The notes under the pieces: generated by a model | What the model was told of the DNA's origin: nothing | Seen by the model: only the letters and a program-made list of their open reading frames with translations | Database searches by the model: none | DNA from: Chthoniobacterales bacterium | GTDB lineage: Bacteria > Verrucomicrobiota > Verrucomicrobiia > Chthoniobacterales > UBA10450 | NCBI GenBank assembly: GCA_013821455.1 | Contig: JACDGS010000010.1 | Span: 1-64,000 of the forward strand | Direction: 5' to 3' | Length of the DNA: 64,000 nucleotides | Position numbers and translations under genes: made by a program | Shown here: piece by piece, positions 7,985 through 37,730 of the stretch | Position numbering within the stretch: position 1 is the stretch's first letter | Layout of the letters: every line of letters starts with the position of its first letter

Positions 7985-9649
<1,665 letters not shown>

Positions 9650-9683: not shown

Positions 9684-9767
9684 GAATCTGGAAACCAGGA
9701 ATCCAGGAAAAAACAGGCAGTAAGAATGATTACTCATTTCTCCTTCCTGGCTTCTTGGTTTCCTGAT
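9684..9767. repeat. Family C inverted repeat (ATCTGGAAACCAGGA)
   Basis: Arms built from AATCTGGAAACCAGGAATCC and CCTGGCTTCTTGGTTTCCTG, joined by an A/T-rich spacer. Sister copies lie at 26814-26887 and 34391-34487. This one sits between groES and groEL and would form a strong hairpin in the transcript, so it may lower groEL expression relative to groES or process the message. Confidence 0.75.
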
Positions 9768-9777
9768 TAATTCTGGG

Positions 9778-24576: not shown

Positions 24577-26391
24577 ATGGATAAAATCCGCAACATCGCC
24601 ATCATTGCCCACGTCGATCACGGCAAGACCACGCTCGTCGATCAACTCCTCCGGCAATCCGGCACCTTTCGCTCCAACCAGAAAACCGAGGAGCGGATGA
24701 TGGACTCGATGGATCTCGAGCGCGAAAAGGGGATCACCATCCGCGCGAAGAACGCCGCCTTTAATTGGAACGGCTACCGCATCAACATCGTCGACACGCC
24801 TGGCCACGCCGACTTCGGCGGCGAAGTGGAACGGATCATGAAAATGGTCGACGGCGTCCTCCTCGTAGTCGACGCGCACGACGGCCCGCAGGCGCAGACC
24901 CGGTTCGTTCTAAAGAAGGCGCTCGAGAACAAGGTCAAACCGATCGTCGTGATCAATAAAGTCGATCGCGAAAACGCACGCCCACACAAGGTGCTCGACA
25001 TGGTTTTCGATCTTTTCGTTGAGCTGAAAGCTAACGACGAGCAACTCGATTTTCCGATCGTTTACGCGAGCGCGAAGAACGGTTTCGCGATGCGGGAAGT
25101 GCACGAGGACAGCCAAGACATGACTCCGCTCTTCGAGGCGATCGTGCAATACATCCCCGCGCCCACGATTGCGACCGAGCCCTATTTTCAAATGCTCGTC
25201 TCGAACCTGCACTACAGCGATTACCTCGGCCGCATCGCGTTAGGCCGCATCGTCAGCGGCCGCGTTACCGTCGGGGATGCCATCGTTTGCATTCATCGCG
25301 ATGGACGCCGCGAGCGCAGCAACGTCACCGCGCTCTTCACTTACGCCGGGATGGCGCAGGTCGAGACGCAGCACGCCAGCGCCGGCGATATCGTCGGCCT
25401 CTGCGGGTTTGAGGAAGTTTTCATCGGCGAAACGCTGACCGATCGCGAAGAGCGCACTGCGCTCCAGTTCGTCGACATCGATCCGCCAACCATCAGGATG
25501 CGCATCCTCGTCAACGACTCCCCGTTTGCCGGACGCGAAGGCAAATTTGTCACCGCCCGCCACGTCCGCGAGCGCCTCATCCGCGAGACGCGTGGCAACG
25601 TTTCTCTCGCGGTCAAAGACACGGAATCCTCCGGCGCTTTCGAAGTGAACGCCCGCGGTGAGATGCAGATCGCGGTCCTCGTCGAACAGATGCGCCGCGA
25701 AGGATTTGAAGTCATGGTCTCCCGGCCGGAAGTCATCTTCCAGCACGCCGAAAACGGCGGTTTGCTCGAGCCGATCGAAACGCTTTACGCCGAAGTGCCT
25801 AACGACAACTTGGGCGACGTCCTGCAGGCGCTTGCGGGCCGCAAAGGTGAAATCGTTGGCATGGATCACCACGCCACTCGCGTCAGCGTCGAGGCGATCA
25901 TCCCCACCCGCGGCCTGATCGGTTTCGAGAGCGACCTGGTCAACCTGACCCGGGGCGAAGGCATCATGAGCCACATTTTCCGCGAGTATGCTCCCTTCAA
26001 AGGCGAACTCGAAGGCCGCAATCGTGGGGTGATGGTTTCGATGGAAGCTGGCACGAGCAAGGCCTATTCACTGAACAACATTCAGGCGCGCGGCAAACTC
26101 TTCATCGGACCGCAGGAGGAAATTTATGCGGGGATGATCATTGGCGAAAATGCGCGTCCGGAGGATCTCCCGGTTAATCCTTGCAAGGCGAAAAACCTCA
26201 CCAACATGCGCAGCCAGGGTGACGGCAAAGGCATTCAATTGGAAGCGCCCTTAAAGATGACCTTAGAGCGTGCGATCGAGTACATCGGAGCGGATGAATA
26301 CGTGGAAGTGACTCCGAAGTCCCTCCGCCTGCGCAAGCGCGTGCTCGACGCTAACGCCCGCAAACGAGCCGCCAACGCCGTCGCCGCCTAA
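24577..26391 (+). CDS. typA: GTP-binding protein TypA/BipA
   Basis: 604 residues from the ATG at 24577 ([20 protein letters not shown]); a TTG 21 bases upstream is a poorer choice. It is a ribosome-associated translational GTPase related to EF-G, acting in ribosome assembly and stress. G1 is AHVDHGKTT, switch I contains [16 protein letters not shown]3 is [15 protein letters not shown] and G4 is INKVDRENA. The C-terminal domain shows [20 protein letters not shown] and the family tail [20 protein letters not shown]. Length is standard. The stop TAA is inside a GCCTAACGA motif. Confidence 0.96.
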
Positions 26392-26435
26392 CGAGTCGGG
26401 ATGTCTGCCGTGCGTGTTACTCGGCCCGCTGTAGC

Positions 26436-26455: not shown

Positions 26456-26565
26456 ATTCCGGTCGCTAAGCCAAGTACGCATCGCGCAGAAAGCGGCGCG
26501 CCCTACATGATCCCCATTAGCGTCCGCAAAAAACTCGCCGATAATCGCTCGGGGAAAGGAGCACG

Positions 26566-26805
26566 ATGAAAAGCGAAATCCGAATCGAGTATTGCGTCGT
26601 TTGAGACTACACACCCAAGGCCGTCAGTTTGGCGACCAAAATTCTCGAACTACGCGATCGGGTCTCGTCGCTCACCCTGGTTCCTTCCGGTGGCGGCGCC
26701 TTCGAAGTCAGCGCCAATGGAAAACTGCTCCACTCCAAGCTCGCCACCCACGAATGGCCAGAGTTCGACGCCATCGTTAGGCAAATCAAGGCGCTGCGAG
26801 CCTAA
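26566..26805 (+). CDS. SelW-like (Rdx family) selenoprotein, UGA = selenocysteine 13
   Basis: 79 residues when the in-frame TGA at 26602-26604 is read as Sec: MKSEIRIEYCVVU, then DYTPKAVSLATKILELRDRV and on. It matches the Rdx/SelW thioredoxin-like fold: IEYCVVU-DY is the redox CXXU motif, LVPSGGGAFEVSANGKLL is the G-x-FEV strand pair, and HEWPEFDAIVRQI is the C-terminal helix. Reading stops only at TAA 26803-26805, itself inside a GCCTAACGA motif. Ribosome site AAAGGAG lies 5 bases before the ATG. A hairpin at the right spacing follows the UGA. It is the first gene of the selC-selD-selA-selB cassette. Standard gene callers would miss it because of the UGA. It is likely a thiol-redox protein; the substrate is unknown. 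Confidence 0.9.
26619..26637 (+). promoter_or_regulatory. Candidate bacterial SECIS hairpin of the SelW-like gene
   Basis: GGCCGTCA (26619-26626) pairs with TGGCGACC (26630-26637) with one C-A mismatch, closed by a GTT loop. The loop G lies 22 bases after the UGA, inside the 16-37 base window required for SelB-dependent decoding. Confidence 0.65.
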
Positions 26806-26813
26806 CGATAAGA

Positions 26814-26887
26814 AATCTGGAGACCAGGAAGCTAGGAAAAAACGGAAAGCGCCTGGATCTTTTTCCTGGTTTCCTGGCTTCCAGATT
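26814..26887. repeat. Family C inverted repeat
   Basis: AATCTGGAGACCAGGAAGCT and CCTGGTTTCCTGGCTTCCAG are inverted copies with TTTTT/AAAAA inside. It fills the gap between the SelW-like gene and tRNA-Sec, ending 10 bases before the tRNA. Confidence 0.8.
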
Positions 26888-26897
26888 CCTTCTTCAG

Positions 26898-26988
26898 GGA
26901 GAGTGAAGGGTGCCTGGTGGCCCTCGCGATCTTCAAAATCGCCGTCGATCCGCAAGGACCGAGGTAGGTTCGATTCCTATCCTCTCCG
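26898..26988 (+). tRNA. selC: tRNA-Sec (anticodon TCA)
   Basis: A 91-base tRNA. Anticodon stem GCGAT/ATCGC (26926-26930, 26938-26942) holds the loop CTTCAAA with anticodon TCA at 26933-26935. The long variable arm TCGATCC-GCAA-GGACCGA has seven positions with one A-C mismatch. The T loop is TTCGATT with stem GTAGG/CCTAT. Acceptor GGAGAG (26898-26903) pairs with CTCTCC (26982-26987), discriminator G at 26988, then CC but no encoded A. The D arm AGGGT/GCCCT has 5 pairs. From the T loop to the discriminator there are 12 stem bases, not the 13 of E. coli tRNA-Sec, and one T-C mismatch at acceptor position 7. Its 3' end overlaps a GCCTAACGA motif. It supplies Sec for the SelW-like protein and FdhA. 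Confidence 0.93.
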
Positions 26989-27009
26989 CCTAACGAACCA
27001 GGGAGGCGC

Positions 27010-28050
27010 ATGATCAAGCTCACCTCGCTCTCCTCCTGCGCCGGGTGCGCGGCGAAGCTTCCGCAGGAAGCGCTCCGAGAAGTCCTGCGCGATCTCCCGC
27101 AATTCAAGAACCGCAACCTCCTCGTCGGCTCCTCGACCGCCGACGACGCCGGCGTTTTTCGCATCGATCGCGATCGCGCCCTCGTGCAGACGGTTGATTT
27201 CTTCACCCCGATCGTGGACGACCCATTTTCCTATGGGCAAATCGCGGCGACGAACGCGATCTCCGACGTCTATGCGATGGGCGGTCGTCCGCTCACCGCG
27301 CTGAACTTGTTAGGCATTCCGGCTGATAAAGTGTCGCCGAAAATCGTGCAGCAAATTCTGCGTGGGGGAATCGAGAAAGCGCACGAGGCAAAGTGCGTTG
27401 TCCTCGGCGGGCACACCATCCGCACGCCCGAGCCACTTTACGGCATGGCTGTCACCGGAATCGTCTCGCCGAAAAATATGCTGACGAATGCGAAAGCGCG
27501 CGCCGGCGATCTGCTCGTCCTGACCAAACCGCTCGGCACCGGCATTGTCACCACCGGAATCAAACGCGGCCTAACGAGTGCCGCGCTGGCAAAGAAGGCG
27601 ATCGCGCTCATGAGTCGCTTGAATTCGTTAGGCGCAACCGTCGCCGAGAGCGGGCTGGTGCGCACCGCGGTTGACATCACCGGGTTCGGCTTGCTCGGGC
27701 ATCTTGCCTCGATGTGCCGCGCCAGCGAAGTCAGCGCGGAGATTTCGCCAAGCGCCGTCCCGGCAATCAGCCGCGAGATTTTTGCGCTCATCGAGAAAGA
27801 CTGCATACCCGGTGGCAGCCGGCAAAATCTCGAAACCGCCAACAAAAATATCGACTGGGATAAGACTCCACCCGCGCGGCGTTTTCTTCTCACCGACGCC
27901 CAAACGAGCGGCGGCCTTTTGCTCGCGATTCCGCCAAAAAATCTCGCGCTTGTCCTGCGCTTGCTGAGTCAACAAAAGGCGCTCTGCCGCGCCATCGTCG
28001 GAAAAATCGTCAGGCAACGTCAGCCGCTCATCCGCGTCATCTCCCCATGA
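27010..28050 (+). CDS. selD: Selenide, water dikinase
   Basis: A 346-residue enzyme making selenophosphate from selenide and ATP. The N-terminal block TSLSSCAGCAAKL aligns with the HGAGCGCK site of E. coli: Cys13 matches catalytic Cys17 and Lys16 matches Lys20; the second cysteine of that site is Ala. ATP/metal blocks follow: STADDAGVF, QTVDFFTPIVDDPFSYGQIA, ATNAISDVYAMGGRPLTALN, GGHTIRTPEPLYGMAVTG and DITGFGLLGHL, then LTDAQTSGGLL. It is the Cys form, not itself a selenoprotein. Ribosome site GGGAGG is 4 bases before the ATG, directly after tRNA-Sec. Confidence 0.96.
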   Translation: MIKLTSLSSCAGCAAKLPQEALREVLRDLPQFKNRNLLVGSSTADDAGVFRIDRDRALVQTVDFFTPIVDDPFSYGQIAATNAISDVYAMGGRPLTALNLLGIPADKVSPKIVQQILRGGIEKAHEAKCVVLGGHTIRTPEPLYGMAVTGIVSPKNMLTNAKARAGDLLVLTKPLGTGIVTTGIKRGLTSAALAKKAIALMSRLNSLGATVAESGLVRTAVDITGFGLLGHLASMCRASEVSAEISPSAVPAISREIFALIEKDCIPGGSRQNLETANKNIDWDKTPPARRFLLTDAQTSGGLLLAIPPKNLALVLRLLSQQKALCRAIVGKIVRQRQPLIRVISP

Positions 28051-28183: not shown

Positions 28184-29575
28184 ATGAGCGCGCGCCGCGC
28201 CATCCCTGCGGTCGGGCAGATACTCTCAGCGCTCGGTCTCCAAGACCTGCCGCGACCAATCGTCACTCAACTCGTTAGGCAACATCTGGCGCAACTTCGG
28301 CTCGCCGAGCGCGCCACGCCTTTCGATAAAATCCTCTGCGATTTGCGCGCTGCGCTCGATCACCTCGCGCGCACTCGTCTTCAGCCGCTGATCAACGGCA
28401 CCGGCGTCATTCTCCACACAAATTTCGGCCGCGCGCCGCTCAGCCCGGCCGCGACGCGCGCCGTCGGCGCGATCGCCTTGAGCTACAACAACCTCGAATA
28501 CGATCTCGAAACCGGCGGGCGCGGAAAACGCGGCGCCTTTCTCGAGACCAGCCTCGCGCTGCTTTGCGGCAGTGAAGCCGCCACCGTCGTGAACAACTGC
28601 GCAGCGGCGCTCGTTCTCATCGTTAGGCATTTCACCCGGAGAAAACCGGAGGTCATCATCTCACGCGGCGAGTTGGTCCAAATCGGCGGCGGTTTTCGCA
28701 TTGGCGAAATCATCACAGCCAGCGGCGCGCGCCTGCGCGAAGTCGGCGCCACGAACAAGACAAACCTGGAAGATTACGCCGACGCGATCGGTTCCGAGAG
28801 CGGACTCATCCTGCGCGTGCACCAAAGCAATTTCTTCATGGGCGGTTTCACCGCCGCGCCGCCTAACGATGAACTGGCGAAGCTCGCGCACGCCCGGCGC
28901 GTCCCTTTCGCGGTCGACCTTGGCAGCGGCGCGCTTGTCCCCACGGAAAAATTCGGTCTCGCGGAGCACGAGCCAACTCCCGACGAAACGCTCAAGGTTG
29001 GCGCCGATCTCGTTTGCTTCAGCGGCGACAAATTGTTCGGTGGGCCACAAGCGGGAATCATCGCGGGAAAATCGCGTCTCGTCGCCGCACTCAAACGCGA
29101 GCCGCTTTTTCGCGCGTTGCGCTGCGACAAGCTCGTCTTCGCCGCGCTCGAAGCGACCGCCGATGCGCACCTGCGCAAGGCCTGGGATGAAATTCCGGTC
29201 CTCACGCTCCTGCGGACGCCGGTGGAACAGTTGCGCGCGCGCGCGGAGATTCTCGTTAGGCAACGGGAGACTGCGGAGCTTGGCCTGCGCGTCGTCGAGA
29301 GCGAAGCGGAGATCGGCGGCGGCGCGCTGCCGCGCTCGGTGATTCCTTCGATCGCGCTCGAATTTAGCAGCACAACTTTTTCGCCTAACGAACTTGCGTT
29401 TCGATTTCGTCGAGCGGGGATTATTGGCTATATCGCGAAAAGCGCGTTTCGGCTCGATCTTCGCACGATTTTTCCCGCTCAGGATGACCGGCTGATCGAA
29501 GTGCTCACACAAATTGTCATCCCGAGCGAATGCGAGGGACCTCGCAAGCGGCCTGTGGGACCACAACGCCGATAG
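28184..29575 (+). CDS. selA: L-seryl-tRNA(Sec) selenium transferase
   Basis: A 463-residue PLP enzyme that turns Ser-tRNA-Sec into Sec-tRNA-Sec using selenophosphate. Seen: the N-terminal tRNA-binding region IPAVGQILSALGLQDL, LINGTGVILHTNFGRAPLS, YDLETGGRGKR, and the PLP lysine block LVCFSGDKLFGGPQAGII. The last about 20 residues (VIPSECEGPRKRPVGPQRR) are translated from a family B repeat, not from conserved SelA sequence; homologs would be expected to end near DRLIEVLTQI. The ATG at 28184 abuts a family A element and lacks a clear ribosome site, so translation may be coupled to or initiated by the hairpin context. Confidence 0.95.
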   Translation: MSARRAIPAVGQILSALGLQDLPRPIVTQLVRQHLAQLRLAERATPFDKILCDLRAALDHLARTRLQPLINGTGVILHTNFGRAPLSPAATRAVGAIALSYNNLEYDLETGGRGKRGAFLETSLALLCGSEAATVVNNCAAALVLIVRHFTRRKPEVIISRGELVQIGGGFRIGEIITASGARLREVGATNKTNLEDYADAIGSESGLILRVHQSNFFMGGFTAAPPNDELAKLAHARRVPFAVDLGSGALVPTEKFGLAEHEPTPDETLKVGADLVCFSGDKLFGGPQAGIIAGKSRLVAALKREPLFRALRCDKLVFAALEATADAHLRKAWDEIPVLTLLRTPVEQLRARAEILVRQRETAELGLRVVESEAEIGGGALPRSVIPSIALEFSSTTFSPNELAFRFRRAGIIGYIAKSAFRLDLRTIFPAQDDRLIEVLTQIVIPSECEGPRKRPVGPQRR

Positions 29576-29622: not shown

Positions 29623-31518
29623 ATGACTCCGCAAAACTTTATCCTCGCCACTGCAGGTCACGTGGATCACGGGAAGACGGCCCTGGTCAAAGCACTCACC
29701 GGCACCGACACCGATCGCCTGCCGGAAGAAAAAGCGCGCGGAATGACGATCGATCTCGGCTTCGCGCATCTCTCGCTCCCCGGCTTTTCGTTAGGCATAA
29801 TCGACGTCCCCGGACACGAAGATTTCGTGCGCAACATGATCGCTGGTCTCGGCGCGATTGACCTCGTGCTCTTCGTCGTGGCCGCCGACGACGGTTGGAT
29901 GCCGCAATCGGAAGAGCATCTGCAAATCCTCGATTACCTCGGGATTCAACACGGCGTCGTCGCGATTACGAAATGCGATCTCGGCGACGCGAACCGGATC
30001 GAGGAGGAAGTGCGGCAGCAACTGCGAGGAACATCGTTAGGCAAAAGTCCCGTCGTTTTGACCTCAGTGAGGAACTCGTTAGGCATCGATCACCTTTGCG
30101 AGGAGCTGGCCCGGCAATGCGCGCAGATTCCGGCGTCACGCGATGTGGGGAAGCCACGGCTCTTCGTCGATCGCGCCTTCTCGATTCGTGGTTCGGGCAC
30201 GGTCGTCACCGGCACGCTCATTGGCGGTCATCTGACCCGCGGCGATACGCTGGTAGTTCAACCGCAGGATTCTCCTGTCCGAATCCGCGCAATTCAGAGC
30301 CACAACGAAGCAGTCGAGACAGCAGCACCCGCCACCAGGGTCGCGCTCAATCTGCCCGACCGGCGCGTGGAGGATATTCCGCGAGGGAGTTTGCTGACGA
30401 CCATCATGCCGGGAACGGTCGGGCGCGCGGTAGATGTTTTGCTTACGCGCTCCGCGCGTCTCTCCCCGGTCACCCGCGCGCTGAAGAGCGGCGCTCTGTT
30501 TCAATTTTATCACGGCAGCGCACGCCACAAGGCGCGTGTCACTTTGCTTGAGCAGCGGGAATTGAAGCCAGGCGAGCGAGCCGTCGCCCGGATGGTTTTT
30601 GCAGAACCGATCCATGCTTACGCCGGCGATCGTTTCATCCTGCGCGATTCCTCGGAGCGACATACGGTCGCAGGTGGGTTGATTCTCGATCCGGACGCGG
30701 CCGGAACGAAATTTCGCTCGGTGGCGCAGCGCCATTTTCTTGACGCGCGGGCGGTGGCGCCTAACGACCCCAACATTCTGCTCGAAACACAGCTTGCGCG
30801 CGACGGCTGGGCAAAAGAGGAAACGTTGCTGCTCAAATCGGATCTGAGTCGGGATGAAATCGAAGCAGTCGTTGCAGAGCTCGTGCGGGCTCAGAAAATT
30901 TTTCGCGCGAAAGGAATCGTGGCCGAGGCCGCGTGGTGGCTGGATCTTTGCGATCGTGCGCAAAAGCTCATCGATGCCGCACATCGCCAGCATCCGCAGC
31001 AGGCTGGATCGGAATTAAGTGCAACGCGTTCAGCGTTGCAGATCGAGGATACGCAGTTGTTCGACGCACTCGTTAGGCACCTTTGTGCGCATGGTTTCGA
31101 GCGTGTGGGCAACGCGATTCGGCGGCGCGGTCACCGGCCCGCATTGCCGCCACAACTGCAACGCGCCGGTGCAGAAATTCGTGCGGCCCTGGCCGCGCAG
31201 CCTTTCGATCCGCCCTCGCGCAAGCAACTCATCCGCGACGCCGCCGCGCGCGAGGCGCTGCGTTTTCTCGCGGAAACCGGCGAGGTCGTCCTGCTTGGCG
31301 ACGATGTTCTTTTGGGTGCCGCGACATTCGTGGAAATGAAGAGCCGCATCCAGCAGTCGTTAGGCACGAAGGGACCGGCAACGGCGAGCGAGCTGCGCCA
31401 ACTCCTCGGCACTTCGCGACGCATCCTTATCCCGTTGCTCGAGCACCTCGATCGCGTTGGCCTGACGGTTCGCCAGGGCGATCGGCGCGCCCTGCGCCAA
31501 AGCGCGCCAGCTCGTTAG
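29623..31518 (+). CDS. selB: Selenocysteine-specific elongation factor SelB
   Basis: A 631-residue translation factor that carries Sec-tRNA-Sec to UGA codons marked by a SECIS hairpin. The EF-Tu-like G domain shows TAGHVDHGKTALVKALTG (G1), KARGMTIDLGF (switch I), DVPGHEDFVRNM (G3) and AITKCDLGD (G4). Domain II/III carries DRAFSIRGSGTVVTGTLIGG. The C-terminal third holds winged-helix repeats (SSRKQLIRDAAAREALRFLA and GPATASELRQLLGTSRRILI) that bind SECIS RNA. The stop TAG lies in a TCGTTAGGC copy that also supplies the stop of the convergent formate-channel gene. Confidence 0.96.
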   Translation: MTPQNFILATAGHVDHGKTALVKALTGTDTDRLPEEKARGMTIDLGFAHLSLPGFSLGIIDVPGHEDFVRNMIAGLGAIDLVLFVVAADDGWMPQSEEHLQILDYLGIQHGVVAITKCDLGDANRIEEEVRQQLRGTSLGKSPVVLTSVRNSLGIDHLCEELARQCAQIPASRDVGKPRLFVDRAFSIRGSGTVVTGTLIGGHLTRGDTLVVQPQDSPVRIRAIQSHNEAVETAAPATRVALNLPDRRVEDIPRGSLLTTIMPGTVGRAVDVLLTRSARLSPVTRALKSGALFQFYHGSARHKARVTLLEQRELKPGERAVARMVFAEPIHAYAGDRFILRDSSERHTVAGGLILDPDAAGTKFRSVAQRHFLDARAVAPNDPNILLETQLARDGWAKEETLLLKSDLSRDEIEAVVAELVRAQKIFRAKGIVAEAAWWLDLCDRAQKLIDAAHRQHPQQAGSELSATRSALQIEDTQLFDALVRHLCAHGFERVGNAIRRRGHRPALPPQLQRAGAEIRAALAAQPFDPPSRKQLIRDAAAREALRFLAETGEVVLLGDDVLLGAATFVEMKSRIQQSLGTKGPATASELRQLLGTSRRILIPLLEHLDRVGLTVRQGDRRALRQSAPAR

Positions 31519-34379: not shown

Positions 34380-34390
34380 GGGAGAAAATT

Positions 34391-34487
34391 AATTTGGAAG
34401 CCAGGAAACCAGGAAAAAAAGGAGACAGTTATGCCGCAGACTCTGGCGAAATTCTTTTCCCTTCCTGGTTTCCTGGCTTCCAAATTC
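34391..34487. repeat. Family C inverted repeat between fdhA and its iron-sulfur subunit
   Basis: AATTTGGAAGCCAGGAAACC and GGTTTCCTGGCTTCCAAATT are exact inverted copies (20 bp and more), so the hairpin in the mRNA would be very stable. It could be a processing or stability site between the two subunit cistrons. Confidence 0.85.
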
Positions 34488-34496
34488 ATCCTCTGC

Positions 34497-37400
34497 TTAT
34501 TCCGACGTTCCGTGCTGGCCGTGGCCGGATTGATGTTTGCCGCCTTCGGGCGCACCGGGCGCCGGTTGCTCGGGATGCAAATTCTCCGGGCCAGCTTGCG
34601 ACGCGTATTTATTGAGGAATGGGAGATACGCTGGGCCCCTCGGCAACTTGCCCGGGACGATGTTGCAAACGAGCGCCTTCGTTTCCATGATCGTAACGTT
34701 CGGTTCGCCGGAGATGGCCATGAGATCGTTCGCCACGTCGCCGCGCAACGGTCCGGCCGAGCCCCAATGAAATGGCATGGCCACTTGGTGGATGATGCGG
34801 CCGTCAAAATGCAACGGGCGCAGCCGGCGACTAACGAGTGCGCGCGCGCCGATCGCCGCGCGCAGATTCACCACGCAAACGTCGTCGCCGTTTTTGATTC
34901 CCAGCTCGGTGGCGAGCTCGCGCGAAAGCTCGACAAACATTTCCGGCTGCAGTTCGGCGAGGTGCGGCAGGAAACGGCTCATCCCGCCAGCGGTATGGTG
35001 TTCCGTTAGGCGATACGTCGTTAGAATGTAGGGAAAACGCGGGTCGTTAGGCGGCGCGAAACGATTCGTCGCGCGGGTGAACCAATCGACCACCGGATTG
35101 GTGTCGCGCGGATAGAGCGCGTTGTGCATGGGCGATTCGAGCGCTTCGAAATGCGTCGGCATCGGCCCGTCCTGCAAACCTTTCGGCACATGCAGCCAGG
35201 CGAGACCGTCTTCGTGCAAAATGAAGGGCGCGTCGCCCGGCTGCGCGGCGAGGCCTTCGCGATGTCCGTTAGGCTGATAATTGGGCGGTTTGTCTTTTTG
35301 AAAATCGGGCACGTCGTAGCCGGTCCAGGATTCGTTAGGCGCGTCCCACCAGACGAGTTTCTTGCGCTCGCTCCAAGGCGAACCATCGGGAGCCGCGCTC
35401 GCGCGGTTGTAGATGATCCGGCGATCCGCCGGCCAGGCAAAGCCCCAGCCGTGGCCGAGATAATCCCGCGACTCACGAGCGAGCGCTTTGTTCTTGCCGT
35501 CGCTCGGAAAAATGCCGGAGTAGATCCAGCAGCCGCAGGCGGTCGAGCCATCGTCTTTCAGGTCGTTGAAGCCGTCGAGTTGCGCTTCCACACCGTAACG
35601 AAAAATGGATTCGTTAGGCGCAGGCTCGCTCGAAATTTTCCAGCCGTTAATTTCCGCGAGAACGGCTTCCATCTTGGGCTCGCCGTGCTCGTCCTCGGGA
35701 TACCACCAGTCGAGCGCGCGCAGCGGTTCATCGAGCGGGTCGTTGGAGGCGTGCGCTTTGGCGATGAGGCGTTTTGCGAGCTGATGCATGAACCAGCTTT
35801 CGCTCCGCGATTCCCCGGGCGGATCAACGGCTTTCTCGCGCCATTGTACGAGCCGTTGAGTCTGAGTGAACGACCCTTCTTTTTCCGCATGGCCGGCGAC
35901 GGGAAAAAGAAAAACTTCCGTTTCGATTTCTTCGGTTTTGAGTTCGCCGCGCTCGATCTCGGGCGAGTCGTACCAAAACGATGCGGTCTCGACTTCGACG
36001 AGATCGCGCACGACGAGCCACTGCAACCGCGCGAGGGCTTTGCGCTCGAGGCGCGCGTTCTGCGCGCCGACGGCGGGGTTTTGTCCCATCACGAGCATGC
36101 CTTCCATTTTGCCGTCGAGCATGTCGTAAAGGAATTCGAAGAAGCTGTGATCGCCGGTGATTTTCGGCATCCAATCGTAACCGTAATCGTTCTCTTTCGT
36201 CGCGCGCGCGCCGTAGTAAGCCTTGAGCAGACTGATGTAATACTTCGGATAATTCGCCCAAAGACCGGTCGGCTTGGTGTTTTTCTTCAGATGATCGCCT
36301 AACGAGTGCTCGTCTTTTGAGGCACTCGGCATGTTGAGATAACCGGGGAGAATGTCGTAGAGCGTGGGGATGTCGGTCGAGCCCTGGATCGAGGCGTGAC
36401 CGCGCAGGGCGAGGATGCCGCCGCCGGGCCGGCCGATGTTGCCTAACAATAACTGCAAAATCGCCGCGGTGCGGATGATCTGGACGCCTTTGGAATGTTG
36501 CGTCCAACCGACCGCGTAACAGATCGCGGCGGTTTTTTCCGGACCCGAGCAGCTCGTTAAGTGATCGGCCACTTGCAGGAAAAGTTCCGGCGGAATGCCG
36601 CAAACTTTCGCGACCATTTGGGGCGTGTAGCGCGAGAAGTGGCGCTTCAGTTTTTGGAAAACGCAGCGCGGATGCTGCAGGGAAAGATCGCGTCGCGGGA
36701 AGCTGAGGTTGTCCTCGCCTTCGTAGGCCCAGGTTTTTGGATCATAGAAGCGCTCCGCTTCGTTCCAACCCGAAAAATAAGCGTCGCCGTTATCTTCCGT
36801 GTCGCGGAAATCTTCGCGCAAAATGCACGAGGCATTCGTGTAATGGACGACGTATTCGCGGAAGAATTTTTCCTCCGTTAAAACATGCCTAACGAGTCCG
36901 CCGAGAAAGGCAATGTCAGTCCCGGCGCGGATCGGCACCCAGATATCCGCGAGCGCACTCGTGCGCGAAAAACGCGGATCGACGTGAATGATGGTCGCGC
37001 CCTTTTCCTTCGCCTTCATGACCCAGCGGAAGCCGACCGGATGCGCCTCGGCCATGGAGGAACCTTCGATTAAAATGCAGTCAGCGTTCGCGAGATCTTG
37101 TTGCGCGGTCGTAGCTCCGCCCCGGCCAAAGCTGGTGCCCAGACCGGGCACCGTGCTGCTGTGTCATATCCGCGCCTGGTTGGAAATGCAGACCATTCCC
37201 AGGCCTCCGGCGAAGAGTTTCTTGATGAGATAATTTTCCTCGTTGTCGAGGGTGGCGCCGCCGAGATGGGCGATCGCTTTGGTGCGGTTGAGGACGACGC
37301 CGTCCTGCTCGTGGATGAAGGTGCGTTTGCGCGATTCCCAAATGCGATCGGCGACCATCGACATGGCGCGATCGAGCGAAATTTCGCTCCACGACTTCGC

Positions 37401-37730
37401 GCGCGGGGCGCGATATTTCACCTTCAACTCACGGCGCGAGTGGGTGAGGAGTTGGAATGAGGCCGCGCCCTTTGGGCAGAGATTTCCCTGGCTGATCGGC
37501 GACTCGGGATCGCCCTCGATCGAGACCAATTTGCCGTTTTTGTGATAGATCAGCTGACCGCAACCGACCCCGCAATAAGGACAAATCGAGCGCGCCACTT
37601 TTGCGTCGTCGATGCGCGCGTGCAGCGCGCGCGTTTTATCGGACATCGACTCGAGGCCGGTGCCGTCTTTGCGTCCGAGGATTTGCCTAACGAGCGGCCA
37701 CTTCAGGAAAAGGTCGACCGGCGAATCCAT
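34497..37730 (-). CDS. fdhA: Formate dehydrogenase alpha subunit, selenocysteine at residue 189
   Basis: 1077 residues when TGA at 37166-37164 is read as Sec. Around the site it reads CISNQARI-U-HSSTVPGLGTSFGRGG, matching the VDNQARV-U-HGPTV context of FDH-N. The N-terminus carries the 4Fe-4S motif SICPYCGVGCGQL with LCPKGAAS, and there is no Tat signal (it begins MDSPVDLFLKWPLVRQILG), so it probably faces the cytoplasm. The molybdopterin domain continues through PDGKMEGMLVMGQNPAVGAQ-like segments (MLDGKMEGMLVMGQNPAVGA) and the C-terminal MGD-binding region (YRLTEHHTAGGMSRFLPHLA). Oxidises formate to CO2. A naive annotation splits this gene at 37164. It is followed by the iron-sulfur, NrfD and FNT genes on the same strand. 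Confidence 0.95.
37134..37152 (-). promoter_or_regulatory. Bacterial SECIS hairpin of fdhA
   Basis: On the minus strand, GGTGCCC-GGTCT-GGGCACC: a perfect 7-bp stem with a GGUCU loop. The loop begins 19 bases after the UGA. E. coli fdhF uses the same GGUCU apical loop to bind SelB, so this is strong evidence that the UGA is decoded. Confidence 0.93.

Follow-up and report, generated by a model that had tools for sequence, protein, structure and literature searches.

The window analysed here, a stretch of 64,000 nucleotides from a Chthoniobacterales bacterium (assembly GCA_013821455.1, contig JACDGS010000010.1), holds a short gene with an in-frame TGA, which we call selW-like or selW, and the genes of the selenocysteine (Sec) machinery. 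These lie in one direction in the order selW, selC, selD, selA and selB, and the features on which the analysis draws are as follows.

26550-26565, + strand: ribosome binding site region GGGAAAGGAGCACG, read from the sequence, with AAAGGAG at the corresponding position of almost every homologue in the order
26566-26805, + strand: predicted selW-like selenoprotein gene, 79 residues, Sec at 13 (Rdx match, 49 homologues, AlphaFold model)
26602-26604, + strand: in-frame TGA, predicted selenocysteine codon, within TGC-GTC-GTT-TGA (C-V-V-U)
26619-26637, + strand: putative bacterial SECIS hairpin GGCCGUC-AGUUU-GGCGACC with a conserved loop G; zero synonymous variation in codons 20-23, and an 8-bp stem in most relatives
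26774-26808: inverted pair TCGTTAGGC / GCCTAACGA across the selW stop codon, forming a 9-bp, terminator-like hairpin
26807-26896: dispersed palindromic (REP-like) repeat that folds into an 88-nt hairpin in the selW-selC gap
26898-26990, + strand: selC, tRNA-Sec (ARAGORN; Rfam RF01852, 64.3 bits)
27010-28050, + strand: selD, selenophosphate synthetase (ORF; assigned by sequence and position, no family-library scan)
28184-29575, + strand: selA, Sec synthase (ORF and synteny; assigned by sequence and position, no family-library scan)
29623-31518, + strand: selB, Sec elongation factor (ORF and synteny; assigned by sequence and position, no family-library scan)
34497-37619, - strand: formate dehydrogenase alpha subunit, predicted second selenoprotein of the window, Sec TGA at 37164-37166 (readthrough frame; upstream limit as read, start codon not fixed)

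The selW-like Gene and Its Product

A sequence-only reading of this DNA had proposed that 26566-26805 encodes 79 residues once the TGA is taken as Sec and translation runs on to a TAA, and its coordinates proved exact: read in this way, the frame opens at ATG 26566, places the TGA (26602-26604) at codon 13 and closes at TAA 26803-26805. The product, MKSEIRIEYCVVUDYTPKAVSL...ALRA, carries the UGA residue as the U of a CXXU motif, and the ribosome binding site that the same reading had placed before the gene lies just upstream. With Cys put for Sec, the protein matches the Pfam Rdx family (PF10262) at 4.7e-17 (62.4 bits, cutoff 22.6), and it also exceeds the cutoff of TIGR02174 (SelT/SelW/SelH; 2.7e-13, 50 bits against 34.2). 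The best NCBIfam match by E-value, NF041051 (SelTWH_Campy), is full-length and reaches 68.5 bits, below the curated cutoff of 88, so that the protein is not a member by that model. The standard six-frame list of open reading frames (ORFs) contains no Rdx reading at 26566-26805, which agrees with the earlier expectation that ordinary gene calling would miss the gene.

Structural prediction points to the same family. An AlphaFold model built from an input of seven sequences has a pLDDT of 92 and a pTM of 0.82, and the top structures returned for it by Foldseek are 2obk (2.3e-08, TM 0.89), 2oka, 2fa8, 2p0g, 3dex, 2ojl and mouse SelW (2npb, 9.4e-05). Profile matches of the protein in the PDB are all of Rdx/SelW type or MIEN1.

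Conservation of the UGA Codon and of the Protein Beyond It

A protein search across 213 genomes of Chthoniobacterales, the order of this bacterium, found homologues in 49 of them, with one homologue each and exactly one in-frame TGA in each homologue. When the general Rdx profile was used, with UGA allowed as the sequence-only reading had advised, the identical 49 genomes came back, again with one TGA apiece, and no Cys copy of the gene was found anywhere in the 213. Position 13 is TGA in 49/49 order homologues; Cys, another sense codon or another stop occurs there in none. The three homologues found in Poribacteria and the one in Zixibacteria have TGA at the same codon, which brings the extracted genes with TGA at the aligned position to 53/53. 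The terminal stops differ by species and may be TAA, TAG or TGA; since the final stop is sometimes TGA, this codon still ends genes in these organisms.

The protein that follows the UGA is conserved as well. Across ten pairs, dN/dS over codons 26-76, past the hairpin, ranges from 0.05 to 0.42, values that an untranslated tail would not be expected to give and that indicate purifying selection downstream of the UGA. The motifs GGAFEV and SK are retained past the UGA. Relatives that lacked conservation downstream and had, at codon 13, a stop or an unrelated residue would have undone the sequence-only reading; the relatives have instead an invariant TGA and a conserved protein after it.

Elsewhere in the phylum the family takes another form. 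The wider phylum yielded 48 Rdx genes, eight with one TGA and 40 without any stop, and among the latter the 20 loci that were read all have Cys at the aligned position (CXXC, YCxxC); the Cys homologues that the earlier reading had suggested looking for thus exist. In a tree of 43 rows, which has few columns and is poorly resolved within groups, one branch separates all Sec from all Cys forms (support 100/98). The Cys-type proteins form a separate subfamily, and the split on one branch implies that the Sec form arose long ago as a subfamily of its own and not by a fresh mutation.

The Candidate SECIS Hairpin

A hairpin with its loop about 22 nt after the UGA had been proposed as a bacterial SECIS element. 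The hairpin exists: it starts 15 nt past the UGA, spans 15-33 nt and places its apical G 23 nt after the UGA. Taken as a single sequence it is no better than chance, for at -6.9 kcal/mol it has a z of -1.05 and 32 of 200 shuffles are as stable, and its energy was rejected as evidence for a SECIS. The published bSECIS model asks for a G within the first two loop positions, a spacing of 16-37 nt, an upper stem of 4-16 bp and an energy of at most -7.5 kcal/mol (PMC13188914). The window hairpin gives -6.9 to -7.2 kcal/mol for spans of 38-54 nt, and 34 of the 53 homologues reach -7.5 kcal/mol on the hairpin alone. Its stem has 5 bp above a C.A mismatch, within the 4-16 bp of the model's upper stem, and 8 bp in most relatives; the mismatch, which weakens the lower stem, is common to other homologues reading GGCGACC. 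An Rfam scan gave no SECIS family match at selW.

Conservation is what gives the hairpin weight. Among rows of the 49 genomes that keep the commonest residue, the codons of the upper stem and loop (codons 20-23) are GTC in 42/42, AGT in 47/47, TTG in 49/49 and GCG in 48/48, with no synonymous change despite 4- to 6-fold degeneracy (permutation p 0.0066, a value that ignores phylogeny, the sequences being related). Leu 38, in contrast, is also present in all 49 and yet is written with six different codons. The apical motif of the 53 homologues is AGUUU in 50, AGGUU in two and GGUCU in one, with the apical G in all 53, and loop position and spacing fit the published bSECIS pattern. The absence of synonymous variation in the apical codons is the mark of a bacterial SECIS element; the case for it is thus a comparative one, drawn from the relatives, the single-sequence hairpin being weak.

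The sel Gene Block

The sel cassette setting claimed for the gene was found, with the tRNA-Sec gene following selW and selD, selA and selB after it. In relatives of the order, tRNA-Sec and selD come directly after selW in every contig long enough to show them, and selA and selB follow in those that extend further. Exceptions to selW-selC-selD are two contig ends, after selW in G121 and after selC in G141; in G160 (L057) only the 5' half of selC lies between selW and selD, which may reflect an assembly error or a recent loss. G268 and G545, which belong to a different class of the phylum, have selW before selC, then selA and selB, with selD further on. In G179 (L066 region), two tRNA-Sec matches of equal score (G179:C160:8152-8241 and 8417-8506) lie side by side between selW and selD.

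Only tRNA-Sec matches of at least 57 bits were counted. The raw count at E 0.001 was useless, since every one of the 213 genomes, and the controls too, gave matches, presumably from ordinary long tRNAs. At the 57-bit threshold, tRNA-Sec was detected in 47 of the 49 selW genomes, the other two being the contig that ends at the gene and the genome with the 5' half of selC. Such a match without selW is confined, within the order, to four genomes (G070, G071, G073, G074), two of which have selC-selD-selA-selB. We propose, from these gene orders, that selW has been passed on at the head of the sel block, so that the Sec machinery is kept or lost along with at least one of its users. On this arrangement, selW may act close to selenium metabolism, or the machinery may simply be retained along with a client.

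Two further genes of the window bear on Sec usage. Codon 13 of selD (27046-27048) is Cys (TGC) here and in three relatives (G113, G114, G143), and is an in-frame TGA (SCAGU) in nearly all others, an apparent exchange of Sec and Cys within one family. The readthrough frame of the formate dehydrogenase gene has 1040 residues and one TGA, as have the full-length homologues in the family; the ordinary ORF list places its start at 37151, past the Sec TGA, at which Rfam SECIS_3 matches weakly (29.5 bits, cutoff 63).

Hairpins and a Genome-Wide Motif

The space between selW and selC is occupied by the palindromic repeat, which belongs to a family with 28 matches in the genome, strong hairpins and arms like TTTCCTGGCTTCCAGATTC. 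Other copies in the window lie at 34388-34489 and 9684-9774, and the repeat at 26807-26896 was not found in the compared loci of relatives. Rfam microRNA matches at two of the repeat sites are surely false.

The motif GCCTAACGA / TCGTTAGGC has 80 sites in the window against 0.5 expected (for example 26386, 26774, 26800, 26988 and 27569), and the TAA stops of a typA-like gene (26386-26394) and of selW (26800-26808) fall inside it. The 4.3 Mb genome contains GCCTAACGA 4605 times (2306 + 2299), about 1.07 per kb, against 62 for the reversed control. The motif is non-palindromic, is located both within and between genes, and is high in other species of the genus and in two further genera (g10, g11); the remaining members of the family have lower counts, and beyond the family it is rare. 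It looks like a DNA-uptake-type sequence, its density being comparable to that of such sequences; a literature search linking these to Verrucomicrobia returned no relevant paper. Paired uptake sequences can act as terminators, and the inverted GCCTAACGA pair at the selW stop is likened to them. The hairpins at 26774-26808 and 26807-26896 may end transcription and separate selW from selC in this genome.

Proposed Mechanism and Alternative Explanations

We conclude, with a probability of about 0.95, that 26566-26805 belongs to the bacterial SelW-like (Rdx, CXXU) family and functions as a selenoprotein gene, on the basis of UGA conservation, coding constraint on both sides of the UGA, constraint on the hairpin, the predicted fold and the gene order. 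Ribosomes would start at the selW ATG behind AAAGGAG, and UGA codon 13 would be decoded as selenocysteine by Sec-tRNA-Sec brought by SelB, itself held by the hairpin 15-33 nt past the UGA, with translation continuing to the TAA at 26803; co-transcription of selW with the sel genes is presumed. The product is predicted to fold like thioredoxin, its CVVU redox motif lying N-terminally between strand 1 and helix 1, and is most likely a thiol/selenol oxidoreductase, small and probably cytoplasmic, in which a selenenylsulfide would form within the CXXU pair and electrons would pass between glutathione-like thiols and a putative partner.

That a Cys-type Rdx gene has here been broken by a point mutation or an assembly error, turning TGC or TGT into TGA, would draw on the existence of uninterrupted Cys genes in the phylum. 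Such an origin does not explain an identical TGA shared by 49 species of the order and by homologues from two further phyla, purifying selection past that codon, or the well-supported branch between Sec and Cys forms; the 49 conserved TGA codons refute both the pseudogene and the assembly-error versions, which retain next to no probability. Equally slight is the chance that the UGA is read without Sec, either by near-cognate suppression or as Trp through a local change of code. Low-level UGA readthrough does occur in many bacteria, but position 13 is the redox position of the CXXU/CXXC family, the gene is confined within the order to genomes that have tRNA-Sec in full or in part or whose contig is cut short, TGA terminates some of the homologues themselves, and the hairpin codons are frozen.

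The position of selW at the head of the block, before selC and selD wherever contigs allow a view, and the dependence of UGA decoding on those very genes also fit a leader peptide, in which the 12-codon ORF MKSEIRIEYCVV ending at the UGA would sense the supply of Sec-tRNA, through termination or Sec decoding, and control the sel genes that follow, the SelW protein being secondary. The whole Rdx domain past the UGA is nonetheless conserved as protein and has a complete predicted fold, which argues that the protein itself is selected, and we regard this explanation as very improbable. The UGA may have a regulatory side role, with selW not only linked to the sel block but in control of it. Early UGA decoding in selW would then report the supply of Sec-tRNA-Sec and couple selW translation to selC-selD-selA-selB expression, making a self-sensing Sec operon, an idea that is somewhat less remote than the leader peptide and still unlikely.

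Comparison with Known Systems

SelW-like selenoproteins of bacteria have been known since 2005, when 48 genes were described whose function was unclear and whose CXXU motif suggested a redox function (PMC1088965). They are among the most widespread selenoproteins in the marine data of the GOS selenoproteome (PMC2398784), and a 2022 review lists them as SELENOW-like, Pfam Rdx, CxxU (PMC9312934). The main texts of the latter two papers make no mention of Verrucomicrobia, and none was found in the main texts of several selenoproteome papers; literature searches that paired SelW with Verrucomicrobia or selenocysteine with Chthoniobacter gave nothing relevant, and a search for linkage of selW to a sel operon found no paper describing it in the library that was searched. 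The family itself is already known, and it may be that only its tight linkage to the sel operon is undescribed. What the locus adds is a well-supported selenoprotein of a soil lineage that the standard ORF list does not contain, and a SelW-type protein that heads the sel block wherever contigs show it in the family, and also in two genomes from a different class. This position ties a redox protein to Sec metabolism and gives a definite genetic context for the search for its function.

Set against the SelW-like selenoproteins of the Sargasso Sea and GOS data, the window gene belongs to a Chthoniobacterales lineage and stands physically first in a sel block. The Cys-type Rdx proteins of the phylum, together with the structures 2obk, 2fa8, 2p0g, 2oka and 3dex, share its fold and have the redox motif in the same place; the phylum members that were read have Cys where the window protein has Sec, lie on a separate branch of the tree and have longer frames, many with a ...RDxIxPxxDLGHSD-like tail. 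A parallel in gene order is the selA-selB-selC cassette that travels with fdhA, where the machinery and its client have been argued to stay together (PMC1794560). Both are blocks of Sec machinery with a linked selenoprotein; unlike the fdhA cassette, the block in the window is linked to selW, and in most relatives also to a Sec-containing selD, while the formate dehydrogenase gene lies some kb away.
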